This document shows positions 2,644 to 25,423 of a DNA stretch of 57,648 nt, in pieces. The stretch's first letter is position 1. Every line of letters starts with the position of its first letter. Source of the DNA: Myxococcota bacterium (GTDB lineage Bacteria > Myxococcota_A > Bradymonadia > UBA7976 > UBA1532); the NCBI GenBank assembly GCA_018813065.1, contig JAHJCH010000279.1:1-57648 (forward strand). The letters are read 5' to 3'. The position numbers and the translations under genes are program-made. A model generated the notes under the pieces. That model was given only the letters and a program-made list of their open reading frames with translations. It was not told the origin of the DNA and did not search any database.

Positions 2644-2649
2644 TCACCC
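2628..2649 (+). repeat. Border repeat, left inner copy (diverged)
   Basis: Reads GGTGTGATTGCCCTGCTCAC on the plus strand and matches the left outer copy (opposite strand) at 19 of the first 21 positions. It overlaps the last codons of the deacetylase-like gene. An ACTCAG precedes both this copy and the right copy at slightly different spacing, which hints at a longer shared ancestor. Confidence 0.45.
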
Positions 2650-4527
2650 ACCCGATTCGACAGGTCGCCAAGCCACAGACGCTGGCTGGATAGGCGCCAC
2701 CACTCGCCCCTCCGCGTCGAGGATCTTTACCCCACGCCCCACCCCATCGAGATCAAACCACACACTGCCTTCTCGCCCCTTGGCGATCGGCGCGTCGCTA
2801 CGCGCCTCGACACACAGCGTGCTTTCGGGGAGGTTGGCTGGGGGCAACAGGGTGAGCCCCTTGAGAGGGGTAGACGAGCGCAGATGGATCCCCTCCGGGC
2901 TGTAATTGATCCGCGCGCGCAGCGCCGCCTCCATATGTGTAACTAACGGCCCCAGCGGCGCCATCCAGAGCTGTCGAGTTGTCTGACGTTTCGCCAAGTT
3001 GCTGAAGAGCGCGTCGACCTCAGGGCGGATCTGAAAGCCTGTGGGACTTGGCTTGATCAAGCCTCGCCCCTTCAGCCGCCCTTGGCGGCGCCAAGTCTCG
3101 AGGTAGACGTGCCCGAGGAGCAGTCCCCGCTCCGACGCCAGGCGATCGAGGTGATGCGCGTTGAAGAGCTTGAGAAGCGTGACACGCTTGAGGAACAGCC
3201 AACTCGTCGAGAAAAGCCAAAAGCCTGGGAAGCGTGGGTGCTTGAAGATCACCGATCGTCGCCTGTTGGAGGAGCCTGGATCGAGCAGGTTGAGGGAGCC
3301 CCTCGAGAGGATGAGATCGCGCGCGGTCCAGAGCAAGCGGACGTTGTGCTTGGCGAGGATATCGAGGATGTAGCGTGAGCCGGGTGAGCTGCCTCGATTG
3401 GTGATCGCCTCGCAGTTGGTGTCGGGTTGGTGATCGATCCACACGCGCCCGCTGTAAGCGCCTCGGAACTGCTTGACCAGCGCCTCGACCCGGCTTGGGG
3501 GATCGTCCTCCCCCGTGACAGAGTGCAGGCCGATCTCCACTCCACGCGCCTGTATGGTGTCGAGGAGCGCGCGGTAAGCCGTCTCCTCGAACTGAGGCGC
3601 GTGAGGCCCACGCTTCTCCACGAAGATGGTCTTGGTGTAGCTCAGCCCTCGGTTGACGAAGCCTGGGTACTCGGAACCCACTTCCCCGCGCTTCAATGCG
3701 CCTGTAGACCCGAAGGCGAAGGCCTCGAGGCGCTTCGTGTCTGATTGATCCGCGTGGTCGGTGAGTACGATGGCCGCGCGATACCCGTTGGGGTAACGCG
3801 CCACCCGAAGGGGGTGAGCAGAACCCACGATCCACTCCGCCTCAAGGCGTCGACGTGTGCCGATCTCACGAGGCTCGGCGGGGAGCGGCGTTCGGCGCGC
3901 CTTGAGATCCACATGGGTGGTACACGCCTCGTAGGTGGAGAAGGGGTGATTCTCCTCATGTTCCAGTTCGAGGCGCACCTCATAGCGCCCCTTTTTGTCT
4001 GGATGCACCCAAGCGCCTTCAATTCCTTCGCCGCCAATAAGGGACAAGCGAGCATCGAAGTGGACTTGACGTGGGGTGAGTCCCCCGAGAAACGTCGTGC
4101 TCCGTACGTGCTTGAGGCGGTAGGCGAAGTCGAGCGCCTCGACGCGTTGGAAGCGCCCTGTCCTGAAGCGCACCCACTCCTCCTTGAGGGCCACCACCCG
4201 CCGCGTCGTCGAGGTAAGTACCAAGTGCAGCCTTGAATCCCCCTCGTGGTGCTCGATCACCAAGCGGTGAGCGACCTCAGGCGCCTCGGCGAGAGCCACC
4301 AGCCTCCAGCCCCCCTCGCGCGGGCCACTCTCAGCCGCGCTGAGCCGAAAGGGGTAGTGCCGTGCTTGACGCTCACCTGACCGGACCACCAGGACAGGGA
4401 GGAGATCGACGAGCGCGCCGCCCTCATCGTGCAGCCACGCCGTAGAGGCCCCCACGCGCAGGGTGAAGCGCGGGGGCTCGGGTGACGCGCAGAGGAGGAG
4501 TGGGAGGAGCAGGGTTAAGGACGACAT
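2644..4527 (-). CDS. Secreted NodB-like polysaccharide deacetylase-fold protein
   Basis: 627 residues with a short hydrophobic N-terminus (MSSLTLLLPLLLCAS) consistent with export, possibly as a lipoprotein. The first ~240 residues look beta-rich and are unrecognised. From about residue 245 the sequence resembles the glycoside hydrolase/deacetylase barrel: YRAAIVLTDHADQ (position of the NodB Asp pair), then GVEIGLHSVTGEDD (candidate His motif) and RVWIDHQPDTN. The catalytic set is not perfectly canonical, so activity is uncertain. The ATG overlaps the 3' end of the upstream FGE-fold gene by 13 bp, so it is probably the last gene of the block. Inferred role: modification of an envelope or surface polysaccharide. 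Confidence 0.55.
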   Translation of the reverse strand: MSSLTLLLPLLLCASPEPPRFTLRVGASTAWLHDEGGALVDLLPVLVVRSGERQARHYPFRLSAAESGPREGGWRLVALAEAPEVAHRLVIEHHEGDSRLHLVLTSTTRRVVALKEEWVRFRTGRFQRVEALDFAYRLKHVRSTTFLGGLTPRQVHFDARLSLIGGEGIEGAWVHPDKKGRYEVRLELEHEENHPFSTYEACTTHVDLKARRTPLPAEPREIGTRRRLEAEWIVGSAHPLRVARYPNGYRAAIVLTDHADQSDTKRLEAFAFGSTGALKRGEVGSEYPGFVNRGLSYTKTIFVEKRGPHAPQFEETAYRALLDTIQARGVEIGLHSVTGEDDPPSRVEALVKQFRGAYSGRVWIDHQPDTNCEAITNRGSSPGSRYILDILAKHNVRLLWTARDLILSRGSLNLLDPGSSNRRRSVIFKHPRFPGFWLFSTSWLFLKRVTLLKLFNAHHLDRLASERGLLLGHVYLETWRRQGRLKGRGLIKPSPTGFQIRPEVDALFSNLAKRQTTRQLWMAPLGPLVTHMEAALRARINYSPEGIHLRSSTPLKGLTLLPPANLPESTLCVEARSDAPIAKGREGSVWFDLDGVGRGVKILDAEGRVVAPIQPASVAWRPVESGG

Positions 4528-6812
4528 TTTCCGGGGGGAGGCGCGTTCGTGTTGACCTCAGCGGCGATGCGCCATCGACCACCGTGATGCACCATCAGAA
4601 TGCCCAACTTGATGGGGAGGTGTTGCTTGCTCAAACTCGAGTAGAGTGAGCCCTCCACGGCGAGCCCCACCTCACCCACAGAGGCGTGCTGCAGCGTAAC
4701 TTGGGAGATCATCAAGCGGCTCCCGGGATTGTTGAAGTAGGGATCACGTTTCTTTCGAATATGTTCGATCCCAAATTGGTTTTTCTTGCTGCGATACCAA
4801 CAGGGTATCGGATTCATGTAGGTCTGAAAGTATAAGTAGGAGTTTCCCTGGTTAAATGCCTTAACGAAATCACGATACGTGTTGATCGCGTCTTTCACTG
4901 AGTGTTCTTTATCCTCTACACATCTCCAATTTCGGCAAGATGAGTAGAGGCCGGGGCAATCTGAGTCTGATTGGCACGCCGCTTTGATGCATTTACCTTT
5001 CTTCGAAGAGCATATATAGCCATATACACACTTATTATGGTGTTTACATGGGCAGTCTCGACATTTTTTAATCGCGCAGTGTCCATCAATACAGTGCTCT
5101 TCACCCAAACAATCCTCACGCCTGCGGCATCGAGGGTAATCACGCGTCGCCAACCGGATCCCAATCAGAGGACTTGATGCCTCTGAAGGCGTATCGGCCC
5201 GACGCGTCGCGGAGATCTCCTCTAGGGGGGTGGTATAGCTCCCCCCCCGCACCACGCGGCGGTATGAGCCTGAGGTCACCGCTGAGCCATCCAACGGCGC
5301 ATCATTGTAGTCCCCATGATAGACGTCCTCGATCCATTCCGAGACCCCCCCGATGAGATCGCATGGGATCCCCTTGACGCAGTCCTTCTCACGCAGGTCT
5401 ACGCTCGCCAACATACCGCATCCGACCAACAACGCCCTTGAGCAGTTGGGTTTGGCATGCCCCCAGGGCCAGGCACGCTGACCACGGGCGGTGGCAGCGA
5501 ACTCCCACTCAGCCTCTGTCGGCAAGCGCGCTTCGAGCCACGAAGCCAGCCTTCGCGCCTGCGCCCATGTCACGCAGCGCGCGGGGGTTCGATCCATGGC
5601 GAGGGGGGCGGGGCAATTGGCCCCTTGACCTGCGGGTGAGCACACCCCGGCCAAGACGCAAGCGGAGTATTGCCGGGTGGTGACCTCCGAGCGCGTCAGC
5701 TTGAATGTCGGCACGCGTACCTGATGCGCGGGGCGCTCATTGGCCTCACCATGCTGGGTGCCCATCGTGAAGGCGCCCCCCCTCACCTCGATCCAGTTCA
5801 GATCTGCTTGGGCGATTTGTCGGCAACGCGTGGCGATCCCCGACAAACAGGAGAGCGTGATGAGGCGCTCGATCTCCTCCGGCGAGGCATCCCTCCGCTC
5901 TTGTATGTGGATAACCCCCTCGCACGCCTCGCCGACCCGCGCGGCGCAAGCGGGCTCGAGTGTTTGGAGGGCGACCTCTGCGTCGAGGTGCTCGTAGAGC
6001 CACGCGCAGGCCACGCCGTAGCCCCCCAAGCAGAGCCGCTCGAAGTCCTCCTGCAATTCGGGAGACTGCCCCAAGATAGGAGAGAGGAGAAGGCGGCGCA
6101 GCGCTTCACACGCAACCTTGTCCCCCTTCGAGCACCCCACCTCATAGAGCCCCAACGCTCTGGAAAGATCCGCCTCCCCTCCTCGTCCCAGCTCATAGAG
6201 CCCCCCCAACGCCCGATGCGCGGCGATCTCCCCTCGACCACAATGCACCCTGAGGTGAGATCGCAGCCGTCTCCAGAGTGGATCTGAAGGGGGGCGTGTG
6301 GTGGAGAGCGCTTCGAGCGCCATGCACGCGCGTGAGCTTCGAGCGCAACGCCCCTCAAAGGCGTTGATCATCGCTGCGAGTGGATTTGAGGAGGCGTCAT
6401 AGGTTCCCGTAATCCTGGCACACGCTGCGGTGTCTCCTTTCTCACAGGCTTGGAGATCAACCAAAGCCGTGCCGTAAACAAGGGCGCTGGGAGGGCGCCT
6501 GTGAGTTGGCGCGGCGAGGAGCCCAAGCGCCAGCCCGATCCCCACAAGCACCCCCAAACCCCAAGCCCTCTGGGGCCACGCCGAGGGGGGGGCATACGAG
6601 GTCTGCATGAGGGGTCGCACCAAGGACAATGAGGTGGGCGCAGCGTATACCTCTCCCTCCTTCGTGAGCCAATCCTCCACGGAGTTGATCAAAGCTGGGC
6701 TTTCTATACCTGATGCCAGATCCTGTAGATCAGCGAGCTTGAGGGGCTCAAGCCCGAGCGCTTGAAAAGCTCTGCTGAGAACTGATCCCGCGTGAGTGTT
6801 CTCCGGCGTCAA
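4515..6812 (-). CDS. Membrane-anchored Sel1-like / FGE-fold / Cys-rich / NTF2-like protein
   Basis: 765 residues. The start is a TTG at 6812 preceded by GAGGAG seven bases upstream. Layout: cytoplasmic N-terminus 1-82; one TM helix about 84-101; a shared motif RPPSALVYG...ACEKGD (107-127); Cys-containing Sel1-like repeats 115-335; an FGE/SUMF1-type domain 340-556 (GGAFTMGTQHGE, RLPTEAEWEFAA, VVRGGSY); a Cys-rich segment 560-631; an NTF2-like module 637-765 containing CWY. The region after RGGSY lacks the two catalytic cysteines of true formylglycine-generating enzymes, so a binding or scaffold role is more likely. It belongs to a paralogous trio with the next two genes. Codons for the Cys-rich segment (4720-5110) are AT-rich. 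Confidence 0.72.
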   Translation of the reverse strand: MTPENTHAGSVLSRAFQALGLEPLKLADLQDLASGIESPALINSVEDWLTKEGEVYAAPTSLSLVRPLMQTSYAPPSAWPQRAWGLGVLVGIGLALGLLAAPTHRRPPSALVYGTALVDLQACEKGDTAACARITGTYDASSNPLAAMINAFEGRCARSSRACMALEALSTTRPPSDPLWRRLRSHLRVHCGRGEIAAHRALGGLYELGRGGEADLSRALGLYEVGCSKGDKVACEALRRLLLSPILGQSPELQEDFERLCLGGYGVACAWLYEHLDAEVALQTLEPACAARVGEACEGVIHIQERRDASPEEIERLITLSCLSGIATRCRQIAQADLNWIEVRGGAFTMGTQHGEANERPAHQVRVPTFKLTRSEVTTRQYSACVLAGVCSPAGQGANCPAPLAMDRTPARCVTWAQARRLASWLEARLPTEAEWEFAATARGQRAWPWGHAKPNCSRALLVGCGMLASVDLREKDCVKGIPCDLIGGVSEWIEDVYHGDYNDAPLDGSAVTSGSYRRVVRGGSYTTPLEEISATRRADTPSEASSPLIGIRLATRDYPRCRRREDCLGEEHCIDGHCAIKKCRDCPCKHHNKCVYGYICSSKKGKCIKAACQSDSDCPGLYSSCRNWRCVEDKEHSVKDAINTYRDFVKAFNQGNSYLYFQTYMNPIPCWYRSKKNQFGIEHIRKKRDPYFNNPGSRLMISQVTLQHASVGEVGLAVEGSLYSSLSKQHLPIKLGILMVHHGGRWRIAAEVNTNAPPPGKCRP

Positions 6813-6849
6813 CGACAGCCTCCTCTATGCTCGATGTAGGCCGTTAGGC

Positions 6850-8250
6850 TCAGCGCATCTTGACCACCCGAAAGCCGACGTCAGAGTCGAGGTAGTTGGG
6901 CGTATAACCCCCTCGATTCGCGGCTCTTTGGCCCTTGGCTGGATCATAGATCCCCCCGCCTCGAAACGATTTCTCGCCCGTGCGCTTTGCGTTGGGCCCG
7001 TATCCCTTGCGGTAATCATCGCTCACCCACTCCCAGGCATTCCCAGCCATATCACACAGGCCTTGAGCGGTGTTTCCCAATGGGAGAGAGCACACAGGCC
7101 ACGTGGATGAGCGACCGCAGCCTGGGCCATCTTGCTGCTTGTACACCGCGCGCTCACAGTTGATCGCCTGATCTCCCCAGGGATATTTGACATCTTGACC
7201 TCGACCCCGCGCGGCGTACTCCCATTCCGCCTCGGTTGGGAGCCGCGCGCTCGCCCAGCTTGCGAATTGACTGGCTTGATACCAATCAATACAGACGACG
7301 GGGTGGTCAGGGCTTCGGAAGGTATGGGGGATCTTCGCCCTCTTGATCCCCTCTCCAAAGTTAACCCTGCATTTAAGATCATCCCAGTGAGGTGGCGTGC
7401 AGTGGCCCTCATAAACACATTTATTATATTGACTTACTGTTACTTCATGCTTTGATATGTAGAAGGAGTTAACTTCTTTTAATAATATTGGTTTCTCATC
7501 AGCTTCGCCTTTATTAGACCCGATATAAAAACTACCTCCTTTAATATAGACCCATTCAATTAAATTTTTATCATTAATAAACTGATCAGGTACAGGATTT
7601 CGAGAAAGAACGGCCTCTGAGATGCGTATACAGCCCTCTCCAGAGCCAGTCTGACACGTCCGATCCATCAACCGCGCCGAATCTTGGAGAGCGTTAGATT
7701 GAACAAGTTGAGCCGCCTCAAGGCAACCCCCCCCCCCGCGACGATGGCAACTCGCCCAGGCGCGTGCGCTGGATGCATCGTGGGAGCCCTCGAGGCGTTC
7801 TAGGATCCCACACGCACCATCCATATCCATGTCACAAGCGACCCGCAGCGCGCCCAGGCGTGAGTCTCCTTCGACCCCCTCAATGATCTCGAGGCACCGC
7901 TCGCGCGCTCCATCCAAGCACGCCCGATACGCCACGACCGCCGCCCCATACACCGAAGCGTCAGGCGCCCGGTGAATCCGAGGAAACCAGCGAACCCCGA
8001 CGCCCAGGAGGAGGGCGGTGACGAGCACCCCATCCCAAGCGCGGAGGGGGAGCATGAGCGCTTTGGTCGGCGGGGTGGGCTGGAGCGGGGTTGGGAAGGG
8101 GATCTCCTCAGGCCGCAGGGTAGGGGTGGCTGAGGCGCTCACCCAGCCCTGAGGCGCTACAATCAGGGGGTCGCTCCAAGCGTCCCCGATCTCTTGGAGG
8201 GCCTCGAGGTCGAGTGGGTTTTGGCGTAGAAAGCGTTGAGTGAACTTCAT
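6850..8250 (-). CDS. Membrane-anchored FGE-fold (SUMF1-like) protein, paralogue 2
   Basis: 466 residues. Layout: cytoplasmic N-terminus with a Pro-rich linker 1-70; TM about 73-90; the trio motif RAPDASVYG...ACLDGA at 96-115; Cys pairs reminiscent of Sel1 repeats 110-215; FGE-type domain 232-466, with GGSFYIGSNKGEADE, ISKHEVTVSQY, RLPTEAEWEYAARG, AGNAWEWVSD and GFRVVKMR. The fold motifs are better kept than in the 765-aa paralogue, yet the loop after SFRGG again lacks the catalytic cysteines. It is 37 bp upstream of the 765-aa gene and 19 bp downstream of the 581-aa gene. No clear Shine-Dalgarno is seen, so coupling is possible. Codons around 7340-7610 are AT-rich. Confidence 0.72.
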   Translation of the reverse strand: MKFTQRFLRQNPLDLEALQEIGDAWSDPLIVAPQGWVSASATPTLRPEEIPFPTPLQPTPPTKALMLPLRAWDGVLVTALLLGVGVRWFPRIHRAPDASVYGAAVVAYRACLDGARERCLEIIEGVEGDSRLGALRVACDMDMDGACGILERLEGSHDASSARAWASCHRRGGGGCLEAAQLVQSNALQDSARLMDRTCQTGSGEGCIRISEAVLSRNPVPDQFINDKNLIEWVYIKGGSFYIGSNKGEADEKPILLKEVNSFYISKHEVTVSQYNKCVYEGHCTPPHWDDLKCRVNFGEGIKRAKIPHTFRSPDHPVVCIDWYQASQFASWASARLPTEAEWEYAARGRGQDVKYPWGDQAINCERAVYKQQDGPGCGRSSTWPVCSLPLGNTAQGLCDMAGNAWEWVSDDYRKGYGPNAKRTGEKSFRGGGIYDPAKGQRAANRGGYTPNYLDSDVGFRVVKMR

Positions 8251-8269: not shown

Positions 8270-10015
8270 TCACCTGTAGCAGCTTTTTTGCTCGTCAGGA
8301 TTCGCCCAACTCATCAACTTCCAACTCCCATCGATCTTTTTCATAAGAGCCACTCGATTTCCACTCGCACTCATACGTTTACGCGTTTTTTCATCATAAA
8401 AATCAACATTTAAATAGTATGTAATTCTAATAACATTTTTGTTTATATACATTGAACTCAACGAGGAGAATTGTGATCGATAATAGTTGTTCTTACTAAA
8501 ATGATTCTCGTCATAGAATTTCTTTATGGATGAGTAAGATTTACCTCTATTTTCGAACCAACATGACATTTGAGCAGGGATATATTGATAAAAATGAAGT
8601 GAGTTGCGATGGGAATGTGCGTTAAAGAGATTGATAAAAGCAGAGGTTGCTTCACGCTCAAGATTAGCCTTGCTTTGTTGAGCGCGCTGCTCCCTTGTTC
8701 GAATTTTCTCTAACCGCTCTTCCTCCTTCCTCCGAATTCTATCTTGTTCCTTCTGCTTTTTTCTCTCCTGCTCCTGCTCTCTCTTTCGGATGAGTTCTTG
8801 CTGTTCCCTCTCCTTCTCTTCAAGCTCGATCTCTCTCCTTGTCTTGATATTTTTTGTTTTCGATTTAAAACAGCTTTTTTCGATACGGTTATCCTCTACA
8901 TGGATTTTCCATTGATCAGACTCTTTTTTTAGGACAATCACCCTCTCATATTCTTCAAATGAAGATTTACCAGGCTCTTTAACTCGACCTTTATCGATAA
9001 AAATCATCTCATTTTCTGAAAAATCTATAATATCTGTTGATTGAGATTCAACATTCCCACCTCCTTGCTCAAACTGCTCTTTATGAATAGATAAAACCTC
9101 ACTTTTAGGTTGATCTTTTTGATTGTAAAAACATCCGACTTGATTAGAAATCATGCCATAGAACTTTTCTGAATTTTGTTCATTATAGGCAGACAGATAG
9201 TCTTTATATATAGAAACTACAGAATTACGCTTTAAGATCAGATCATTTTGCTCTTTTTCTCTAATCTCAAGAACTTTTTGACATCCTTTTTCATAGTTCA
9301 TCGAGCAAGACTTCCAATAAAGATATTTGATTGTCGATATTTGCTCCTGTGGGAGCAGGCCTGCGAGCCGCACACAAGCTTCACCTTTACTCCCCTCGCA
9401 AGCTCGCTCAAGCAAAGCTTTTATCGTATCTTGATCTTTATCACCATGGCTTGATTTTGCTAGTCTAAGACAAGCCGAAGCGCTCCCCAGATGACATTGA
9501 CCCCATATAGAGGCAAGTTCACAGCTTTGCGGATATTTGCATTGCTTTAGGGCTATACACGCCCCACTAGACTTCTTCGAGTTACAAGCTGCTTCGATCA
9601 AACGTTGTTGACTCTCTCCTTCCACCGACTTTACCAGATCGGCGCACTCTTCCATATTCCCTTCTAAGCAGGCTTTATGAGAGACGCTCCTGGGGCCGTA
9701 CTCGAAGATGTCTGGTGGTCGATAGGCATGGGGTAAAAATATAAATATACCACAGAGAAGGAGCCCTACAGTTGAAATACCTCCATAAAGCTTTAGGTAG
9801 AAAAGGGATTCTTTATAAGATGGGGTAGATTGCAATAATGTTTGGTCATACAAGCTGTTATATTGAGGTACCGCGATGTTTAAATCAGTAGAGATCCATT
9901 TAGAGGATGGAATAATGAGATATGATATTCCGGAATTGGATACCCTTTTTATCTCTTCAGGCTCAAAAATTTTATTCTCATTAAATTTAGCAACAAAGAG
10001 AGAATGGCTTTTCAT
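8270..10015 (-). CDS. Membrane-anchored double NTF2-like protein with coiled coil, paralogue 3
   Basis: 581 residues, AT-rich throughout. Cytoplasmic N-terminus 1-75; TM about 77-96; trio motif RPPDIFEYG...ACLEGN at 99-120; Cys-rich Sel1-like repeats to ~250; NTF2-like module A 262-383 (AYNEQNSEKFY ... GCFYN); a highly charged Glu/Lys/Arg/Gln coiled coil about 390-452; NTF2-like module B 455-581 (CWFEN), ending KSCYR. Modules A and B resemble each other and the C-terminal module of the 765-aa protein. There is no FGE domain. The Shine-Dalgarno is weak. Function unknown; topology puts the repeats and NTF2-like modules on the outside if the TM is a signal anchor. Confidence 0.65.
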   Translation of the reverse strand: MKSHSLFVAKFNENKIFEPEEIKRVSNSGISYLIIPSSKWISTDLNIAVPQYNSLYDQTLLQSTPSYKESLFYLKLYGGISTVGLLLCGIFIFLPHAYRPPDIFEYGPRSVSHKACLEGNMEECADLVKSVEGESQQRLIEAACNSKKSSGACIALKQCKYPQSCELASIWGQCHLGSASACLRLAKSSHGDKDQDTIKALLERACEGSKGEACVRLAGLLPQEQISTIKYLYWKSCSMNYEKGCQKVLEIREKEQNDLILKRNSVVSIYKDYLSAYNEQNSEKFYGMISNQVGCFYNQKDQPKSEVLSIHKEQFEQGGGNVESQSTDIIDFSENEMIFIDKGRVKEPGKSSFEEYERVIVLKKESDQWKIHVEDNRIEKSCFKSKTKNIKTRREIELEEKEREQQELIRKREQEQERKKQKEQDRIRRKEEERLEKIRTREQRAQQSKANLEREATSAFINLFNAHSHRNSLHFYQYIPAQMSCWFENRGKSYSSIKKFYDENHFSKNNYYRSQFSSLSSMYINKNVIRITYYLNVDFYDEKTRKRMSASGNRVALMKKIDGSWKLMSWANPDEQKSCYR

Positions 10016-15422: not shown

Positions 15423-17060
15423 CTAAATCACTTCAATGCGGTTGAGACGCGCTTTACGCTCTAAATCCGTGTTTATTTCACTGGATGTGTTACCTCGAGG
15501 TTGAAGTTCTATGCTTTGAGAGCCTTGTGATCGTTCGTGGTGAGCGCTGACCGTAATACGACCTGAATCTGAGACGTTTACGACCATCCTGACCCGATCC
15601 CCGACGCGCGCGCCGATGCTCGGAGGGAAGGTGATGCTCTTGCTGGGAGATGCGCCATCTGGACGAGGCCCTTCTGGGCCTTCAAAAATCTCCACGATGA
15701 GGTGATCATTGACGTTGTTGACCTGGAAAAAACGCTCTTTTTGGATCGGAACGGGGATCCCCTTCTCTACCAACGGACTGAGGTACTCCCCCTCATGTCG
15801 CCACACCAATACATTAATGCCGTGGGCGAGGCTTGAGCGCGGCGCGGACTCGACGACCTCGCTCATCATGGCACGGATCGCTTGGTTCGGGCTGTTTTGA
15901 GCGAGGTCCTGGGCGACCTTGATGGCACCAAACCGCGCGGCTCCTTCGGCGACCACAGCGTCGACGTCAACAGCGTCGCGCCCCGTGATCGGCGCGACAC
16001 GATCCTCTCCAAAGCGCTCGTAGAGCAGGTTTTGAATCGCTCGAAGCCTCACCGATCCCCCAACAGGCAGGACTCGGGTCACCGCGTCGATGCTGACTCC
16101 TGCATCCTCAAGCGCCTGATCGATCGTCTCGCTACAGCGCTCGATCAAGGGCTGGCACTCTCGCTCCCAGTCTTTGACTTGAACTTTGATCACCGTCATG
16201 ACTTCATTTTTGTCGCGAAGTACTGTTTTGATTACTTTTTTCTTGATTTCTTTCCCTGCCGAGGTCTCTTTGAACTGACATGCGAGATCTTTGAGCTGAT
16301 GATATGTAAGTTGACTGATATCTGCGCGGTAATCAAATTCATCTTGAGCATGATGAGTTTCCGCAGATCGCATAATATGCTTGAACATCACATCATCCCA
16401 ATCTTTGCCACCCAACTCAGATTGACCGTGCCCTCCAATCACTTGGGGTTGACCCTCCTCGGGTACCTCTAGGATCGCGATATCTAAGGTCCCCCCCCCA
16501 AGATCAAAGATGAGATAGATTCCAGGATCAGCTTCATTTTCTCCGGGCTTAAAATATCCGTATAGAGCGGCCTCAGGCTCGTTGATCGTGTCAATTAGTT
16601 CGATCCCAGCGAGGGCGACAGCCTGTGCTGTTGCTTCTTTCCTAGGAATTGTAAAATCGCGAGGGTGTGTGACAACTGCTTTAACGAGTGGTCGACTTTG
16701 GTCAGATTCATCAACTGCTTTTTTAATCTTTCTTAAAATAAGTGAAGAAATATCAGTAGGATCTAAATCAAGGTCGGTCCAACGCCGTATTTGATCGCCT
16801 GTGAGGCCAATATGACGCTTCGCAAACTCGACCAGTTCACCTTCATCTTTTGAGATGCTTTCTAGAATAGCCTGAGAACCCACAATTGCCCTTGGATTTG
16901 ACCTGAAATCTTCAGTAATGAATACCTTAGAGGGCATCGTCCAACCCGATTTGCTCCCGTTCCGCTCCAGCTTGATGAGTTCTGTTGAGGTGTCAGGTGG
17001 TGATACTCGCGCGCACGCGCAAAAAGTTGTGCCTAAATCGATTCCAAAAATCGTGCTCAT
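15423..17060 (-). CDS. Hsp70/DnaK-like ATPase without lid domain
   Basis: 545 residues from the ATG at 17060. A longer GTG frame to 17084 exists, but AGAGGAG lies just upstream of the ATG and the family begins TIFGIDLGTT, so the ATG is chosen. The ATPase domain is complete: phosphate-1 IFGIDLGTTFCAC (4-16), phosphate-2 YLIFDLGGGTLDIA (182-195) and adenosine motif VLPVGGSVRLRAI. About 150 residues follow that resemble the Hsp70 substrate-binding beta domain (GIPVPIQKERFFQVNNV, PSIGARVGDRVRMVVNVS). The alpha-helical lid of true DnaK (usually ~638 aa) is missing. No DnaJ or GrpE is nearby, so it is a dedicated paralogue working with this block rather than the housekeeping chaperone. Confidence 0.85.
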   Translation of the reverse strand: MSTIFGIDLGTTFCACARVSPPDTSTELIKLERNGSKSGWTMPSKVFITEDFRSNPRAIVGSQAILESISKDEGELVEFAKRHIGLTGDQIRRWTDLDLDPTDISSLILRKIKKAVDESDQSRPLVKAVVTHPRDFTIPRKEATAQAVALAGIELIDTINEPEAALYGYFKPGENEADPGIYLIFDLGGGTLDIAILEVPEEGQPQVIGGHGQSELGGKDWDDVMFKHIMRSAETHHAQDEFDYRADISQLTYHQLKDLACQFKETSAGKEIKKKVIKTVLRDKNEVMTVIKVQVKDWERECQPLIERCSETIDQALEDAGVSIDAVTRVLPVGGSVRLRAIQNLLYERFGEDRVAPITGRDAVDVDAVVAEGAARFGAIKVAQDLAQNSPNQAIRAMMSEVVESAPRSSLAHGINVLVWRHEGEYLSPLVEKGIPVPIQKERFFQVNNVNDHLIVEIFEGPEGPRPDGASPSKSITFPPSIGARVGDRVRMVVNVSDSGRITVSAHHERSQGSQSIELQPRGNTSSEINTDLERKARLNRIEVI

Positions 17061-17076
17061 CAGCTTTTTATCTCCT

Positions 17077-18600
17077 CTAATCACGATCTTTTTTAATTAA
17101 AAATATGGCTTTATCTTGAATTTCAGCCTCACGCGTGCATTCAGATAGAACTCCATCAACAATATTCTTGAGCCGATACGCTCTTTCTGGATTTTCCCAA
17201 GTATTTTGTGAACTCCAAGACTCAAATCCATTGATTTGATCTTTAATCAAATCAATTTGATACAGTAAATCAATTTCTAAACGAGTTTCCCCTTTAGATA
17301 GGTATAGACACTTTAACGCAGCCTGAAAGTGCCCTGGTTTAACCTGTTTAGGTGGGATAAAAGCGGATTGAATTGGCGTCATCATCTTCACTCCAAGCTT
17401 GGGCTTGAGCCCTGCTGGAGGGGTTGGCGTCGTAGGCTGATCCTCAACGGCGTAGAGGTTGAGGCGCGCCACGCCTTGCCCACGACACTCCAGCGGGAGA
17501 ACAAGTGCATTTAATTCTTCGTATCGGCGAGGTTTACCGCTGGGGAGGACCGCGCCTTGAGCTTTTTCGACCTCCCCATGCGTCAACGTCTTGAATGCGT
17601 AGCGACCGCTGTCATAGGGCGCCAACTCGATCGACTTCAGGCGGTCTTTCGGGGTCGCGACGTGCTCACTCTCTAGGCGCTTCATGACGTGTTGAGTTAC
17701 CTCACGGCCCAATTTAATGTCCCGACTGAGCACGAACACGATCAAAGGACGAACGCCGACATATTCGTATAGGTGATTCCCTGTCGATTGCTCTTCGCGA
17801 AGCTTGGTTGCCTCGAAATCGACCCCAGACCACTCCGGTTGCTCACGCAGGGCGTTGAGGTGATCGCGCACACGAGCGAACATCACCTGATCGAGCCCCC
17901 GTTCTGCGAAGACCTTGCCGCGGAAACGCAGCGAGACGGCGATCATCCACACCCCATAGCCTTGCTGGGCGCGCTCGGCGAGCGCCCTCTGAAGACAAGC
18001 GACGTCTGGCCCAGGCACACAGTCTCCACTCTGCCCATCTGGCTGCGTGCGGGCGGTGGTCGCCTCCAACCCGTCGGTGATAATCACAGAGATCCGCCGC
18101 TCGTCGATGGGGCTTTTCTCCACCGTGCGCTCGCCTGAAGGATCCCGCCGAGGAGGGAAGAGGACCCCCGCGATAGGCGAGGCCCCCTCTCGGTAGACCT
18201 TGGGCGTCCGGTAGTGGTTCGGATTGGGCTTGATCCCACAGCGAGTATCCCCCTTTTTGAGGATCTCGCAGTACTCAACGGGGGCGGCGCCTGCGGCGCT
18301 AATACCCTGTAAAATAAAGCGATGTACACTCTCGACACCGCCCGAGTCGCCGCCCGCGTAGCCCTGCATCGAGGTGCTCAAGTCTACAAAGATCCGCGCA
18401 CCATCGGGGAGCGGCGGGGCTGGCTTGGCTGGAGCTTTCAGCGCCTTTTTCGCCTCCTGCTTCACCTCTGGCTTAGGCGCGGGGGAGGTCGCCGGAGCAT
18501 CATCACAACCCACCGCAGTGACCCAGGCGCAGATGTAGATCGACGCGAGGGCGAGTGATCGGCCCAGGCCAGGCGGAAGGGTGTTTGGTTTAAGGGACAT
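17077..18600 (-). CDS. vWA-domain lipoprotein
   Basis: 507 residues. The N-terminus is a signal sequence with a lipobox-like AVGC (Cys32), then an Ala/Pro/Lys-rich linker. From ~67 there is a von Willebrand A-like fold with the metal-ion adhesion motif DLSTS (73-77) in ARIFVDLSTSMQGY; ISVIITDGLEATT and ARPLIVFVLSRDI-like strands follow. It should be lipid-anchored and bind a divalent cation and a protein partner. It overlaps the upstream 132-aa gene by 11 bp and is 16 bp upstream of the DnaK-like ATG, so co-translation is likely. vWA proteins accompany FtsZ/tubulin-like proteins in some described bacterial operons, which fits the tubulin-like gene here. Confidence 0.75.
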   Translation of the reverse strand: MSLKPNTLPPGLGRSLALASIYICAWVTAVGCDDAPATSPAPKPEVKQEAKKALKAPAKPAPPLPDGARIFVDLSTSMQGYAGGDSGGVESVHRFILQGISAAGAAPVEYCEILKKGDTRCGIKPNPNHYRTPKVYREGASPIAGVLFPPRRDPSGERTVEKSPIDERRISVIITDGLEATTARTQPDGQSGDCVPGPDVACLQRALAERAQQGYGVWMIAVSLRFRGKVFAERGLDQVMFARVRDHLNALREQPEWSGVDFEATKLREEQSTGNHLYEYVGVRPLIVFVLSRDIKLGREVTQHVMKRLESEHVATPKDRLKSIELAPYDSGRYAFKTLTHGEVEKAQGAVLPSGKPRRYEELNALVLPLECRGQGVARLNLYAVEDQPTTPTPPAGLKPKLGVKMMTPIQSAFIPPKQVKPGHFQAALKCLYLSKGETRLEIDLLYQIDLIKDQINGFESWSSQNTWENPERAYRLKNIVDGVLSECTREAEIQDKAIFLIKKDRD

Positions 18601-18988
18601 CCAAAAATTCCTGTTGATCTTGCGCGAGGTGGAGGACCTCGATCGGATTCAATCGATGTATTTGGTGCCCGGATGTGTTTTGGTTATTTTTATATTGAAT
18701 CTCTATATACCTATGTCCATTTCTGTTCGATTTGCTCCCTATAAGCTGAGGGTCGAAGTTGACCTGAGAGGGCCATGGAAATTGAAATGATTGCCCTCTT
18801 CGAGAGCGTAAAATAAAGCTGTGTCGAACACGATTATTCTGATCTATCAGTAAAAACTGACCATCTCTGATCTCTACATTGAGGAGTTGCTCTCCTGTGG
18901 CGATATTCCAGAAAGACCACCCCCCCTGTCGGCTTAAAAACGGACCTAATTTCTCAATTTCGACCGGTTTTCCATAAAAGCTCGCCAT
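18590..18988 (-). CDS. 132-aa protein of unknown function
   Basis: No recognised domain and no signal peptide. It looks like a small, beta-rich cytoplasmic protein: short hydrophobic/aromatic strands (GGWSFWNIATGEQLL, DGQFLLIDQNNRVRHSFIL, RYIEIQYKNN). A good AAGGAGAT lies 7 nt upstream of the ATG. It sits 12 bp after the actin-like ATPase gene, and its end overlaps the start of the vWA lipoprotein gene, which argues that it is a genuine part of the same complex. Confidence 0.6.
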   Translation of the reverse strand: MASFYGKPVEIEKLGPFLSRQGGWSFWNIATGEQLLNVEIRDGQFLLIDQNNRVRHSFILRSRRGQSFQFPWPSQVNFDPQLIGSKSNRNGHRYIEIQYKNNQNTSGHQIHRLNPIEVLHLAQDQQEFLDVP

Positions 18989-19000: not shown

Positions 19001-21661
19001 TTAGGGCAAGGTCAAGAGTCGAGTACGAAGCCCTGACTCGATAAAGAGGTCGAGGGGGCTCTTGCTAAACCAATGTTGATTCTGTTGACGACTTGCTTGA
19101 AGCTTGGGTTGGCTCTCCTGTATAACTCTAAGGAAGTTATCTTTGGAGCCTACAATCTTATCAGGGAATATAATACCCGCTTTTTCGAAGTCATCGAGCC
19201 TCCAGTGATACGCTGCGTTCGACTCAAGGCTTGGCCCGTGGATACTTGGGAAGTGGATGTTAAGATCGAACTCAATAGGACGCCACCAATCGATTAAGGT
19301 CGTGCGCTGATTTTCAGGCAGATCGAAGCACACCATCGTGGTGGGTAGGCCCACAATGCTGCGGCAGGGGGATGGCGCAACGCTCATCCAATCAGGATCG
19401 CGCCCCTGCTCCATTCTTTGGGAGCTGGTGTATACGATCTGAGTTTGTCTTTGTTGACCTAAGAGCCCAAAAGCCACGACGTGCTTTGGGTGCACCCCCC
19501 TTGGAAGGATGAGCGGCTCGACGTTCACCTTCGCTTCGGGGATCGACTCGAGAAGTTCCATGACGCGGCGCTCCAACAGGAAGCTGAAGCTCTGATTGGG
19601 GTTTGGATGCACGAGGTCCGCCAAGCCCCAACCACTCCCCAGGCGCGCGAGGTGGACGACCTGGGTGCTAAAGCCACCGAACCGACGCTGAACTTGGCCG
19701 TTGAACCAGGTGGAAGCGATGAGGCGCGCAATGTACTCGATGAGCTGATCGAAGAAGGCCTCAACGCGTCGCTTGGTCATCGACTGCTTGATGGGGTCGA
19801 TGAGATCGGAGGTCATTCCGTTTTGGCGCAGTTTGCGGCGGATCTCATCGCCGCTGAATCCACGGACCAAGCATCGGTTGGCGATCTGAGCGCCCCCTTC
19901 AGGACCGAGCAGCGCCTCAAAGAGATCCTCCCCAGCGTATTTGAGGCTCGTGGCGTACTCCACGATGGTGGTGGATTGGCCGCCCTGATCGCGCCAGAGG
20001 AAGCTGATATCGGTGCTCCCTCCCCCAATGTCAACCAAGAGCTGGACGGTGTAGCGTCCCCCAATCAGAGCTTGATCGTGATTGGCTTGAGTGACGATGT
20101 TGACCGCTGCTGCGGCTTCGTTGAGCGGGTTGTGGGCGACGTCAACGTCGAGCCTCACCCAGTCCCTCACCCCCCAGTGGTGAAGCCCGTCTCGCGAGGG
20201 GGCCGTCGCCCGCAGTAGGGTGCTTTGGAGCTGCGTGATGGCAGTGGTTGACCAACTCCCAGGGTGGGCGAAGCGCAGGTTGAGGGCGGCGGGGAGGTTG
20301 GGCGCCCCCACGTGCTGCGCCTCCTTGTGGTTGAAGTAGTTGGCGAGGTTAATGAGGAGCAGCGTCTTGAGGTAGGCCATCCGCAACGCCTCAGCTCGCG
20401 CGGTGTCCTCCCACTTTAGGTTTCGGAGCAGAGCGTTAGAGGGATCGAAGCCGCGCCAATCGACATCGTCTCCACCAATGGCGAAGTCGAGCCCAGGGCG
20501 CCACTCGCTGATCGCGTCGGGCGTGTGGCTGCGGGTCGTCTCCACCGTCCAACGCGTCAGCAGCTGGCTGGGGAGGAACTCTCCACAGGGGCCAAACCCC
20601 TTGGTGGGCATGCGCGGAGCCCACTCGGCCATTTGGAATGGCGCGCCAGGCCGGTGGCCTCGCACGAGGTACTCGTGCAGATCCGTGATTGGGAGGATGC
20701 CTTGGTTTTCAGTGATGTCGTCGAACGCCACGCAGGAGTTGGATGTCCCGAAGTCGAGGCCGATCGTCGTCGTGGTGAGCGCGCCGCTGGCGATGGGCGC
20801 GGGGGGATCGATGAGGAAGACCCCACCGTAAACGAGTCCATCGGCCGTCGAGAGGTTCACCGTGACCACCTCAGGGCGACCGCTCGTGGAGAGTGCCCCA
20901 AGGCGCTTCATCCTGATCTCGACAGGGTGGGGGTTGGAGTCAGAGACCTTGAACCCGCAGAAGTCGATGGGCTCCAGCGCGATGAGCTTACCTGATGTAT
21001 CGAGGTAGCGAGCGCTCCAACTCTCCGAGAGTGAGTCCTCCTCGAAGGTCGCGTAGGCCGTTGCATGGACGCGCGCTTCGATGATGAAGGTGTGCCATTG
21101 AGGCGCGCGCACCTTTGGCCAGAGCGTCAACTCAAACCCCTCCAGCATGTCTCGCCGGGGTTGGTTCGTTACGCGGTTTCCCACCCCAATGAGATCCAAC
21201 TCGATGAGCTCGGGGTCATCGGCCTGGCCATGAAATGGAATTCGGACTTGGTAGCGACCTAATCGCTCGTTAATCTGGCCGTGCCATGAGGGGTTGGCGC
21301 GGAACCTTTCGATATCTACGAGGCCGAGGTAGTCCGCTTTGACGGGCAGCTGACCCACCTGGGGGTTCTGACTCCCATCACCGAAGATGAGGACGCCGTC
21401 AAGGAGGATCTCCTTGAGACTGATCGTCTCAGCGTCATCGACCCTGATGTACTGATTCGCGAAATCCTCCCACTGCACGACTCTCCCGCCTGGGAGCCGG
21501 TGGACGCCCAGGTGACTCAGCGTCGTCTTATTTGGATCCTCTGCGCCACAAACGGGGCATCGAATCGACATCGCGTCGGGGGCGTTGAAGCCGATTATAC
21601 CGAGCTTGAGGTTGATCGTGTTGCGCTTCCAATCAAAGCCACAGTTACAAGGTGGAAACAT
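19001..21661 (-). CDS. Zinc-ribbon plus actin/Hsp70-fold ATPase
   Basis: 886 residues. The N-terminus has a likely zinc site, C5-x-C7 and CPVC at 35-38. Residues ~40-290 are a beta-rich region I cannot name. An actin/Hsp70-superfamily ATPase follows: phosphate-1 IGLDFGTSNSCVAF (300-313), phosphate-2 LLVDIGGGSTDISF (541-554) and a later AFGLLG that may belong to the adenosine side. It is longer than any standard Hsp70, MreB or ParM, with ~200 residues inserted between the phosphate loops and a ~100-residue tail. It should bind and hydrolyse ATP; polymer formation is possible but unproven. GGAGG precedes the ATG. It lies 22 bp downstream of the 586-aa gene. Confidence 0.78.
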   Translation of the reverse strand: MFPPCNCGFDWKRNTINLKLGIIGFNAPDAMSIRCPVCGAEDPNKTTLSHLGVHRLPGGRVVQWEDFANQYIRVDDAETISLKEILLDGVLIFGDGSQNPQVGQLPVKADYLGLVDIERFRANPSWHGQINERLGRYQVRIPFHGQADDPELIELDLIGVGNRVTNQPRRDMLEGFELTLWPKVRAPQWHTFIIEARVHATAYATFEEDSLSESWSARYLDTSGKLIALEPIDFCGFKVSDSNPHPVEIRMKRLGALSTSGRPEVVTVNLSTADGLVYGGVFLIDPPAPIASGALTTTTIGLDFGTSNSCVAFDDITENQGILPITDLHEYLVRGHRPGAPFQMAEWAPRMPTKGFGPCGEFLPSQLLTRWTVETTRSHTPDAISEWRPGLDFAIGGDDVDWRGFDPSNALLRNLKWEDTARAEALRMAYLKTLLLINLANYFNHKEAQHVGAPNLPAALNLRFAHPGSWSTTAITQLQSTLLRATAPSRDGLHHWGVRDWVRLDVDVAHNPLNEAAAAVNIVTQANHDQALIGGRYTVQLLVDIGGGSTDISFLWRDQGGQSTTIVEYATSLKYAGEDLFEALLGPEGGAQIANRCLVRGFSGDEIRRKLRQNGMTSDLIDPIKQSMTKRRVEAFFDQLIEYIARLIASTWFNGQVQRRFGGFSTQVVHLARLGSGWGLADLVHPNPNQSFSFLLERRVMELLESIPEAKVNVEPLILPRGVHPKHVVAFGLLGQQRQTQIVYTSSQRMEQGRDPDWMSVAPSPCRSIVGLPTTMVCFDLPENQRTTLIDWWRPIEFDLNIHFPSIHGPSLESNAAYHWRLDDFEKAGIIFPDKIVGSKDNFLRVIQESQPKLQASRQQNQHWFSKSPLDLFIESGLRTRLLTLP

Positions 21662-21683
21662 CTTGATCTAAGCCTCCATCACC

Positions 21684-23444
21684 CTAGTTATCGTTGAAAT
21701 GCACGATGTCTCGCATTGGAGAGAATCGGCCATAGCCGGGGATGACGACGCGCTCCGCCTGGTTCGAGCGCGGCAGGATAGCGCCCCCTCCCTGCGCGAT
21801 GAGCGCCTCGACGATCTCCACGTCTCCTAACACCCTGACAGCGAACGCCTTGGCAGCCAAGAGGCAGAGTTGCTCTAAATCTGAGCTGGGTTGGCTGTAG
21901 CTTTTGATGAACCGTTGCAGCGTCGCGAGGCGATGGGTGATCTCTTGGTCTTGGTGCGCTTTGAGCCACCCCTCAATTTCGATCAATGTTAAGAGTTCGA
22001 ACGCCTCATCGTCTGTCTCGAAGAGCGGCTCGCCCTCCTGATCGATGAAGCCAAAGCCATCGATCCACCGAGCCCCTTCGAAGATGAGCCAGAGCGTGAG
22101 CCCCAACTCTGAAAGATCACCCACGATCTCCTTGCTTGCCGCAGGGAACCCACCCTCAATGAAGGCGAGGCTTGGTTTGTCACTTGCCCCGTCGGGGGGG
22201 AGTCGAAACGCCCACCCCTTCGCTTGGAGGGCATCTAAAACCTCCTCCGAGGGCGCGAGAGTGATATTGTTCTTGGACATGTAGTCCTTGAACCTCGGCG
22301 TCCAGTGCATTGGCGTGAGTTCACCGAGCACGTTGGGGGCGTAGAGCGCCAAGGCGCGCCCAATATCACTTAACGCGAACGGCTGACTCGTAACGAGTTG
22401 GGTCAGTCGCTGTCCGTCGCTTTTGAGCTGATCGATGTGGCCCGAGAAGAGGTTTTTGACAGACTCAGATATCTGATCGAACCTCTGCGCTGACCTTGGA
22501 ATCGGATCCGCGACCCACTCAGCACAGCCCTCCCCAAGGAGGTAGGCCGAGGTCTTCTGCCCAGAGGTCTTTTGGAAATAGGCGAGGTTGTCCTGACCAA
22601 AAGCGAACGTGAGGTAGTTCGGCCTCCCTTTGGGCTCGTCAGGCAGCCTCGCCGTGCAGCCAAGGCTGTGGGCCAGCCGCGTGGTGAAGCCGTCTGAGTC
22701 AGAGAGCAGGTAGATGACGCGGCGCTCCTTTTTGTCTCCCACCTCGACCTCGAAGGGGCCGAGCGAGCGGACGTCGAGGATCGTGTCTGTCGCTTGATCT
22801 GCGAAGCCCTCTAAGACGAGGTCGAAGAGCCTCATCCACGCGTGTCTAGAGGGCTCCCAGTCTCCGCTGCGCGCCAGCGCGGCCCTGATGACGCTGAGCA
22901 GGGCCTTGGTGCGCGCGGCCCTTGGTCCATAGTCGGCCATGATCTGCCGCAGTTGGGCGAGTTTGAGTTTGTCCTGCTTGTAACCCGCGAGGCAAGGCAC
23001 GATGTCATCGACGATGTAACCCCAGAGGTCTGCCCCGTGGAAGATCAGGCCGACGCGGACACTGGCGCCTCGCCGAACAGATAAGATCGCGCTTTTGAGC
23101 GCGTCCGACTTGATGCCCTCGATGTCGATCCATCGAAACGTGAACTTTCCACAGACCAACCCCTGGAGGAGCAGCTTAGAGGCCTCTACCAGGGGGTGGT
23201 TTGTGGCGATTTGAGCGATGTTTGGATCGTTGTCGAGCGTGTTCTTCAGCGCGAGTTGAGTCGCCTCGTTGATTGCGAGGGGAGTCGGGAAACTGCTGAT
23301 GCGTAGACCGTCCGATTTCGGAATCCAATCGGCAGGCGGGCGGTCTGGAGCCGCATTATTATTGAGCTGCGGGGGCGCAAAAAAACCTGAGGTTGGGAGA
23401 GTCCCAATGGCGTTCGGCGGGAGCGGGACGAGAGTGAGTGACAT
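21684..23444 (-). CDS. 586-aa protein of unknown function, conserved-block partner
   Basis: I do not recognise a domain. It has no signal peptide or membrane helix and is probably cytoplasmic. Visible features are an Asn/Pro-rich N-terminus, alternating alpha/beta segments (SVRVGLIFHGADLWGYIVDD; RRVIYLLSDSDGFTTRLA) that might be a vWA- or Rossmann-like core, and a helical C-terminal half. A strong CAGGAGGAT lies 5-6 nt upstream of the ATG. It is squeezed between the tubulin-like gene (27 bp) and the actin-like gene (22 bp), so it is most likely an adaptor or regulator of one of them. Confidence 0.6.
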   Translation of the reverse strand: MSLTLVPLPPNAIGTLPTSGFFAPPQLNNNAAPDRPPADWIPKSDGLRISSFPTPLAINEATQLALKNTLDNDPNIAQIATNHPLVEASKLLLQGLVCGKFTFRWIDIEGIKSDALKSAILSVRRGASVRVGLIFHGADLWGYIVDDIVPCLAGYKQDKLKLAQLRQIMADYGPRAARTKALLSVIRAALARSGDWEPSRHAWMRLFDLVLEGFADQATDTILDVRSLGPFEVEVGDKKERRVIYLLSDSDGFTTRLAHSLGCTARLPDEPKGRPNYLTFAFGQDNLAYFQKTSGQKTSAYLLGEGCAEWVADPIPRSAQRFDQISESVKNLFSGHIDQLKSDGQRLTQLVTSQPFALSDIGRALALYAPNVLGELTPMHWTPRFKDYMSKNNITLAPSEEVLDALQAKGWAFRLPPDGASDKPSLAFIEGGFPAASKEIVGDLSELGLTLWLIFEGARWIDGFGFIDQEGEPLFETDDEAFELLTLIEIEGWLKAHQDQEITHRLATLQRFIKSYSQPSSDLEQLCLLAAKAFAVRVLGDVEIVEALIAQGGGAILPRSNQAERVVIPGYGRFSPMRDIVHFNDN

Positions 23445-23471
23445 ATTAATCCTCCTGAGAGATTTGGTGGC

Positions 23472-24821
23472 CTAGTTTCGCGTTAAATGTTCTGTGATGA
23501 TGTTGATCAAAACATCCGCAAGGTGGTTCGCCAAATCCTGAGGATTTTTAACTTGGTTTGGTGGCTTTGTTGAGCTAAGTTTCCAGATTAATTTGAGCTG
23601 GTCAAGATGTGATCCTGAAATATCTGAATCATATTGAGACCATGTGATTCCATTGTCGTAGCACTGGTTTACCCAGTTTATGCATCGGTTTAGGGCTTCT
23701 TGGCGGTGTTTTAATGATAAAATAAGTAGATCAATAAACTCATTTCGTTTTTTCTTCATCCCACCCGCATTTGAGTACATAATGATGCAATCGTATAAAT
23801 ATGGTGGAATGTCTGATTTATTTGACCAAATGCTAAAAGAACTTTTGAGATTTTTTTGTTGTGTTTCATCTTCAGTATAGAAACTCAACAGTTGAATCGT
23901 GTGTCTCGCGACGGTCAGTCTCTTAATCAAAGAGATATTTTCATGCCATTTCATCTCTAACAAACTGCGAGGTTGAGCGTTGTCATGTGAATATGCAATG
24001 ACATTGCTTTGGAAATTCGTCGTCATGTCCGTCGCGAATTGGAAGAGCGCGCGCGCCGCGAGGAGGTGGTAGATCGAGGACACCTCACCCTGAACCGGCG
24101 TGCGTGCCTCCAAAAACCCTTGCGCGTTCAGGGGGGGGCCCAGCAGCGCAGACGCTTTGAGGTGTGGGCGCACGGTTCGATAAAAATAATCGAGCCCGTG
24201 GCGCATGTTGCTGTCCATATCCGCCTTCGAGATCGCGGCGGCTTGGTTGATCGGGGGGTTGAGCCAGCCGAGGTGGAACGCGCCGAACCACCTCTGAGCG
24301 TCCCCCAGACGCTGGACGAAGCTGGGGATCACCCCCGCACCTGTGCCGCCGATAAAGCTCCCACACACCATCACGCGCTGTTTGTTGTTGGCTACGGCGT
24401 TGATCTCTTCGGCGATGTGGTTTTGCTGCGCGGCGAAGGCGGAGGCCCCCAACGTGGGCCGCGCGAAGAAGCCATGGGCCACGTCCTGATCCGCGTCCTC
24501 CTGGGTGAACAGGGCGTTGATGAGATGCGCGGTGTCGCCAGGCTGCTCATCAAGGAGGTTACGGAACTTTAATCCGTCTCCCCCGACCCCCGTGGAGTCA
24601 AAGGGAGGGAGGAAGTGCGGCGCCATGGGGTGACGCGCCCCGAGCTTCTGATCCACGTACCCGTCGAAGGACTGAAGCGTCTCCGAGAGCGGAGACTCTG
24701 TGTCCGCGTCGATGACATGACAATCGATATCTGGAGGCAGCGCACCTAGATACATGAGCCGCGCGATGGCCAACGCGGAGTGTTGGCCCGATCCTCCAAC
24801 CGCGATGAGGAGCTGTGACAT
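23472..24821 (-). CDS. Tubulin/FtsZ-like GTPase
   Basis: 449 residues. The N-terminus IAVGGSGQHSALAIAR (6-21) fits the first nucleotide-binding loop of the tubulin superfamily, HVIDADTESP (35-44) fits the strand-3 acidic end, and GSFIGGTGAGVIPSF (154-168) holds the GGTGAG form of the tubulin signature G-G-x-T-G-[SAT]-G. Spacing between these motifs is right. The C-terminal half is helical, unlike FtsZ, and resembles the divergent tubulin-like family found with vWA proteins. It should bind GTP; filament formation is inference. The codons change abruptly from GC-rich (24000-24821) to AT-rich (23472-24000), with no obvious domain break. The Shine-Dalgarno is weak. It is not the cell-division FtsZ. 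Confidence 0.78.
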   Translation of the reverse strand: MSQLLIAVGGSGQHSALAIARLMYLGALPPDIDCHVIDADTESPLSETLQSFDGYVDQKLGARHPMAPHFLPPFDSTGVGGDGLKFRNLLDEQPGDTAHLINALFTQEDADQDVAHGFFARPTLGASAFAAQQNHIAEEINAVANNKQRVMVCGSFIGGTGAGVIPSFVQRLGDAQRWFGAFHLGWLNPPINQAAAISKADMDSNMRHGLDYFYRTVRPHLKASALLGPPLNAQGFLEARTPVQGEVSSIYHLLAARALFQFATDMTTNFQSNVIAYSHDNAQPRSLLEMKWHENISLIKRLTVARHTIQLLSFYTEDETQQKNLKSSFSIWSNKSDIPPYLYDCIIMYSNAGGMKKKRNEFIDLLILSLKHRQEALNRCINWVNQCYDNGITWSQYDSDISGSHLDQLKLIWKLSSTKPPNQVKNPQDLANHLADVLINIITEHLTRN

Positions 24822-24859
24822 CTCTAGAAACCCCTAACCTCTTTTGTTATGAAGCGCGA

Positions 24860-25423
24860 TTAACGACGTCGAATCAAACCATGAATGATTTTGATTATGA
24901 ATGAGAGTACTAAGACTGGTGATGCTCCGAACAAGGCACCTCTCTGCCAGTCTGGAATATTATAGAGCAGTATCAAGTCTCTGAGTTTTGGGTCAAGGAT
25001 GCATCGAGTGACCATCTCTTCTTCTGGCCTAAACACCGCTTGAATCACGCCTGCGGTGATCACAAGAGGAGTTAGGACACTGATAAAGCGGATAAACCCG
25101 CCAGGGAGCCAGTTTTTATTTGAAAAGATCCAAAAGAATAGGAAGAATAGAGAGACTCCCAATAATGTCGTGATCCCAACAGAGATCAAAAGGGCTTGGT
25201 TTGTGCTTTCACAGTCAACAGGCTTGATCTCATCTATGAGATCAATGATTATTGGTACATTTCCATCATCAATGTTACCATCATCAGCAAGCTTGCGGTC
25301 TTTACCATCACCATCAAGCTCGGCTTTGTCTGTGCGACTTGGAGCAAGCTGTGCGTACGAAGCCCCCCCAGCGCTCAAAACAAAAAAGCATGACACGATC
25401 AGGATCCAGTACGGCCTTTTCAC
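24860..25423 (-). CDS. Secreted/membrane protein, first gene of the block
   Basis: I start the gene at a GTG (25423) because GGGAGA lies just upstream and the resulting N-terminus is a clean signal peptide (VKRPYWILIVSCFFVLSAGGASYA, cleavage before QLAP). A longer ATG frame from 25486 would put 21 charged residues before it and would overlap the putative -35. The mature protein is ~160 residues: an Asp/Lys-rich stretch, then two or three TM helices (LLISVGITTLLGVSLFFLFFWIF; FISVLTPLVITAGVIQAVF; ALFGASPVLVLSFIIKIIHGL). Function unknown; likely an inner-membrane anchor or sensor for the downstream tubulin-like protein, whose gene follows after 38 bp. Confidence 0.6.
   Translation of the reverse strand: MKRPYWILIVSCFFVLSAGGASYAQLAPSRTDKAELDGDGKDRKLADDGNIDDGNVPIIIDLIDEIKPVDCESTNQALLISVGITTLLGVSLFFLFFWIFSNKNWLPGGFIRFISVLTPLVITAGVIQAVFRPEEEMVTRCILDPKLRDLILLYNIPDWQRGALFGASPVLVLSFIIKIIHGLIRRR

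Follow-up and report, generated by a model that had tools for sequence, protein, structure and literature searches.

The stretch of 57,648 nucleotides analyzed here (the window) carries, between positions 2644 and 25423 (25486 with the most upstream start), long ORFs on the minus strand throughout. These form a block of 13 closely spaced genes, designated from upstream to downstream s208, TUB, p586, ACT, s132, vWA, DnaK, M14, BIG, SP3, FGE2, FGE1 and the gene for a 627-aa protein (Table 1). The initial annotation of this region had counted twelve minus-strand genes; the strand, the intergenic gaps of 12-96 bp and the presence of overlaps (three, of 8, 11 and 13 bp) were borne out, and the number of genes was revised to 13. 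A promoter and terminator scan revealed no excess of terminators over shuffled sequences, and an Rfam search returned no match. The GC content of the block is 0.53-0.55, versus 0.66-0.71 in its flanks, and varies strongly from gene to gene (0.39-0.64). The low and uneven GC content of the zone spanning 2001-26000 is consistent with horizontal gain. The source genome assembly comprises 5.7 Mb in 361 contigs and is 89.6% complete; in the empty-site comparison with relatives, the two flanks of the block fall on separate contigs. Elsewhere in the window, a solitary D12-class DNA adenine methyltransferase (PF02086, 1565-2395) lies directly downstream of the block, and a second low-GC stretch (0.43) encodes a hybrid histidine kinase that contains a GAF and a response-regulator portion (47916-49661). 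A protein with a clear vWA domain (PF00092) is encoded at 49668-50795, outside the block.

Table 1. Genes of the minus-strand block, listed from upstream to downstream.
Gene or product	Coordinates	Strand	Description
s208	24860..25423	-	core small membrane protein; start at 25423 (GTG) or 25486 (TTG)
TUB	23472..24821	-	tubulin/FtsZ-superfamily protein, diverged FtsZl1/Tubulin_2 relative; C-terminus all-helical in the model
p586	21684..23444	-	core protein, domain not recognized; joined to TUB in another genome
ACT	19001..21661	-	N-terminal Zn-ribbon and actin/Hsp70-fold ATPase
s132	18590..18988	-	small core protein, poorly conserved
vWA-like lipoprotein	17077..18600	-	DxSxS motif; invariant Cys behind a hydrophobic N-terminus
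DnaK-like ATPase	15423..17084	-	ATPase domain and substrate-binding beta domain, lidless; frequent, not universal member
M14 zinc carboxypeptidase	14075..15385	-	signal peptide; PF00246, E 5e-52; accessory
BIG	10112..14020	-	large protein with about 6 C-terminal TM segments
SP3	8270..10015	-	single-pass; weak SnoaL-like domain; accessory
FGE2	6850..8250	-	single-pass; FGE-sulfatase-like domain without the catalytic Cys pair; accessory
FGE1	4515..6812	-	single-pass; FGE-sulfatase-like domain; accessory
627-aa protein	2644..4527	-	signal-peptide-like N-terminus; accessory

The product of TUB is a diverged, short (449 aa) relative of FtsZl1/Tubulin_2. All 10 members of the TUB family match PF00091 and 9 of the 10 match Tubulin_2, mostly weakly, and the protein encoded in the window scores 13.3 bits against PF13809, below the gathering score of 27. 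The T4 glycine loop (GGTGxG) is invariant across the TUB alignment in the form GGTGAG, and the top structural matches in the PDB for the AlphaFold model of TUB (pLDDT 71.5) are FtsZ proteins, with E-values of about 1e-5 and low TM scores (about 0.3), which upholds the tubulin/FtsZ-like part of the original assignment. The longest C-terminal helix in the model spans about 33 residues, and an extended coiled coil is absent. Inspection of the alignment by eye did not recognize a T7 loop with an NxDFxxD-like motif. Because this catalytic motif was not recognized, TUB may not polymerize like FtsZ.

Two further putative nucleotide-binding proteins proposed initially, a Zn-ribbon actin/Hsp70-fold ATPase and a lidless DnaK-like ATPase, were likewise recovered. 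ACT presents N-terminal Cys pairs (Zn-ribbon), conserved phosphate-1 (GLDFGTSN) and phosphate-2 (DxGGGSTDI) motifs and weak profile matches to mitochondrial Hsp70 and MreB (E-values from 1e-5 to 2e-4), and the DnaK-like protein, when compared with Hsp70/DnaK chaperones, covers their ATPase and substrate-binding beta domains and lacks the alpha lid. The sequence of p586 has no match in Pfam and only local matches in the PDB, to two designed proteins, and its model (pLDDT 68.8, moderate confidence) matches no known fold. The s208 protein, which had not been singled out before and is here part of the conserved core, has a signal-peptide-like N-terminus, about 3 TM segments and two invariant Cys residues. 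Most loci with ACT and vWA as neighbors have s132 in the space separating these two genes. The annotation of the following protein as a vWA lipoprotein stands in a qualified form. The lipoprotein status is predicted from the position of its invariant Cys. Neither Pfam nor the PDB yielded a match, and the vWA assignment is a weak one, backed by a MIDAS-like motif that is altered in one member of the family and by the alignment of the family with vWA domains of its own genome (hhalign 57%, E 1e-4; negative controls 0-0.3%).

A search with TUB across 379 genomes of the phylum identified 14 that have it, whereas a further 12 members of the same family gave no hit. The gene content of related loci was determined with an all-frame profile search. 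The upstream half of the block is a conserved system, with the core order s208-TUB-p586-ACT-s132-vWA-DnaK. In a Bradymonadaceae MAG of the same class (G052), all seven core genes occur in identical order at pairwise identities of 30-41%; Ser/Thr protein kinases lie on either side of that core operon (L003:355-4650 and L003:17372-19387), one of them with a NERD domain. The s208-TUB-p586 genes are adjacent in 11 of the 14 TUB genomes, the window included, and ACT lies in the same locus as TUB in eight and within the same ORF in one. Five genomes (G111, G170, G246, G326 and G186) harbor a split system at two distant loci, with s208-TUB-p586 at one and ACT-(gene)-s132-vWA at the other, the latter being followed by DnaK in G111 and G170. 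DnaK is part of the core locus in four of the 14 genomes and, since several members are without it, is not essential to the system. The joint recurrence of the tubulin-like, 586-aa, actin-like, 132-aa, vWA and DnaK-like genes in several genomes, as initially predicted, is thus confirmed, and is extended by co-occurrence and by gene fusions.

Strong ACT matches are found in exactly the 14 TUB genomes, along most of the protein in 12 and partially in G175 and G086. The remaining 60 ACT matches are short, score below 30 bits and resemble ordinary Hsp70 phosphate loops. The vWA family is present in 12 of the 379 genomes, all of them among the 14 with TUB. The ACT and vWA profiles both derive from genomes that carry TUB, and the genomes are not independent; the hypergeometric figure for the identical TUB and ACT genome sets (about 1e-25) ignores relatedness and profile origin and hence shows only that chance placement fails.

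In some genomes, core genes are merged into larger ORFs. At locus L028 (G120), the TUB sequence extends into a region that resembles p586 (hhalign 90.7%, E 1e-6), and downstream of this fusion follow ACT and a vWA-like lipoprotein (hhalign 86.5%). At L029 (G175), a single 1633-aa ORF contains TUB and ACT regions, with a middle part that is weakly p586-like (hhalign 62%, E 7e-5); immediately ahead of this gene, a tyrosine-recombinase-like ORF was noted by eye (L029:171-1445). The extension of TUB at L030 (G086) is not recognizably p586, and the presence of p586 there was unsupported. Outside the phylum, relatives of TUB adjoin ACT-domain proteins on mobilizable plasmids of the cyanobacteria Gloeothece PCC 7822 and Picosynechococcus PCC 7003 (L031, L032). 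The Gloeothece relative aligns with TUB at an hhalign value of 98.4%, and one cyanobacterial relative passes the PF13809 cut-off with 40.8 bits. A protein of 1118 or 1096 aa is encoded downstream; the C-terminal part of the Gloeothece protein aligns with ACT (hhalign 97.8%) and the Picosynechococcus protein contains the same ACT motifs. A tblastn search for ACT in plasmids found none, the cyanobacterial ACT match having come from the neighbors of TUB matches. A small protein with 4 TM segments precedes TUB on both plasmids. Profiles supported neither its identity with s208 nor the presence of vWA in the cyanobacterial operons, and p586 within the cyanobacterial ACT-domain proteins was similarly unsupported. 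Taken together, the TUB-p586 and TUB-ACT fusions and the plasmid relatives suggest a single complex.

The genes downstream of DnaK present a different picture. M14, SP3, FGE2, FGE1 and the gene for the 627-aa protein are found beside the core in this window only, and BIG in one other genome (G105), where two BIG homologs flank the core, one before s208 (L019:14069-17194) and one after DnaK (L019:1-1635, minus strand). The twelve-gene system first proposed was therefore drawn too wide, since its carboxypeptidase, three single-pass proteins and NodB-like gene accompany the core in no other genome. Several of its individual assignments were sound, namely the M14 carboxypeptidase, with its strong PF00246 match, and the large polytopic protein, BIG, the TM segments of which all lie within the C-terminal fifth. 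The three single-pass proteins are indeed related, sharing an N-terminal region, and two of them contain an FGE-sulfatase domain that had been missed. The NodB-like label of the 627-aa protein was dropped after Pfam and PDB searches without a match. FGE1 and FGE2 resemble the formylglycine-generating enzyme family (PF03781) in their shared domain. Unlike those enzymes, FGE2 lacks the catalytic Cys pair when aligned to the bacterial FGE structures 6muj and 2q17, and is hence not expected to make formylglycine; for FGE1, the pair was judged from its sequence only.

In the FtsZ-FtsA divisome pair, a tubulin-superfamily GTPase has an actin-superfamily ATPase as its partner at the inner membrane. 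The core resembles it in combining a tubulin-like protein with an actin/Hsp70-fold ATPase and differs from it in that the FtsZ catalytic loop is not recognized in TUB and the other partners are different. The 2010 description of the FtsZl1 family (Tubulin_2, PF13809) drew mostly on gene neighborhoods and predicted a function in membrane remodeling for its operons (Makarova and Koonin 2010, PMC2875224), which are the closest known relatives of the present system. The similarities to FtsZl1 comprise a diverged FtsZ-like protein in which T6-T7 is not recognized, a helical C-terminus and nearby membrane proteins and a vWA protein, the vWA call being weak in our case; FtsZl1 operons sometimes include kinases or OmpA (PMC2875224). 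In most FtsZl1 members the GTPase domain is followed by an extended coiled coil (PMC2875224), whereas TUB is short, has no such coiled coil and falls below the Pfam cut-off. The main text of that study contains no p586, ACT, s132 or lidless DnaK, and names no actin or Hsp70 partner for FtsZl1 (PMC2875224). No description of the exact gene set was found in the open-licence literature searched.

The TUB and ACT genes occupy identical sets of genomes and are fused in some species, suggesting a molecular machine of the cell envelope that has not been described before. Gene order, co-occurrence, fusions, nucleotide-binding motifs and predicted membrane segments support an inner-membrane assembly, driven by nucleotides, that would be coupled to envelope sensors, which we consider the likeliest reading, at about even confidence. 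In such an assembly, TUB, p586 and ACT would form one cytoplasmic complex, as suggested by fusions and co-occurrence. Within it, TUB may be a scaffold or a short filament that is switched by GTP; ACT would be the ATPase that partners TUB, in a loose parallel to FtsA and FtsZ, and p586 would join the two. The complex would be anchored in the inner membrane by s208, the vWA-like lipoprotein would work on the envelope side, s132 being its adaptor, and the optional lidless DnaK-like protein might remodel or reset the complex. The FGE-like, SnoaL-like, M14 and BIG accessories could then be exchangeable envelope sensors or effectors. More specifically, and more tentatively, TUB and the actin/Hsp70-fold ATPase may be obligate partners, bridged by the new family p586 and coupled via the inner membrane to envelope sensors in Myxococcota, with a simpler form on cyanobacterial plasmids. 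We infer the physical complex, its polymerization, the hydrolysis of nucleotides, a transmembrane coupling and a role in envelope remodeling or surveillance; the same applies to the outer location of the lipoprotein, the polymerization and the chaperone drive put forward in the initial annotation.

The main rival explanation, and a serious one given the patchiness, the low GC content and the plasmid-borne relatives, is anti-phage defense. The core would then act in biological conflict, possibly by abortive infection, with the NTPases setting a threshold, sensors in the envelope or cytoplasm triggering assembly and an effector arresting the cell, as an analog of the GTPase-centric conflict systems with tubulin and HSP70 that are defined by GAP1-N2 and by DO-GTPase, a member of the TRAFAC clade (Kaur et al. 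2020, PMC7159879). Those systems have in common with the present one a tubulin-like protein, HSP70, vWA proteins and FGE-like (FGS) effectors, and their HSP70s include a version without the peptide-binding domain (PMC7159879); kinase, NERD and DUF4011 genes, moreover, are found beside relatives of the core. They differ in that the conserved second NTPase is here the Zn-ribbon actin/Hsp70-fold ATPase. Membership in the GAP1/DO-GTPase group was ruled out, because GAP1-N2 is absent from the source genome and from all 14 TUB-positive genomes, and DO-GTPase2 (searched as PF19993) from the source genome, the 89.6% complete assembly in which alone it was sought. Within the phylum, GAP1-N2 occurs in only two of the 379 genomes (G201 and G168), both without TUB. 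PADLOC defense profiles matched the core proteins at noise level (best E 0.003), and the anti-phage families they represent were rejected accordingly. No toxin, nuclease or clear effector was recognized in the conserved core, and no relative was found in viral contigs, leaving a conflict system as a possible but rather unlikely account.

Segregation or positioning of the DNA of mobile elements by tubulin-like and actin-like motors, after the manner of TubZ or ParM, would accord with weak profile matches of TUB to TubZ and RepX and with the cyanobacterial plasmids, and is nonetheless improbable, as no DNA-binding adaptor was recognized, several core partners are membrane proteins or lipoproteins, and members are not confined to small replicons, some of their contigs reaching 422 kb. 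A gathering of unrelated neighbors in a horizontally acquired region, to which the gene-to-gene swings in GC and the unconserved downstream genes would be congenial, may describe the accessory half and is refuted for the core by the co-occurrence of ACT and vWA with TUB, the upstream seven genes keeping their order at 30-41% identity and co-occurring even when unlinked, which makes it a highly improbable explanation of the block as a whole.

The two great families of cytomotive proteins are the tubulin-like and the actin-like ones, and not many bacterial systems are known to require a member of each. Should the core be a defense system, it would represent an additional NTPase architecture, distinct from the GAP1/DO-GTPase group. 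Read as a nucleotide-driven envelope assembly, it would provide the FtsZl1 family with partners and testable predictions, and a compact operon encoding both proteins, which always accompany each other and are sometimes fused, would offer a tractable case for how tubulin-like and actin-like proteins cooperate.
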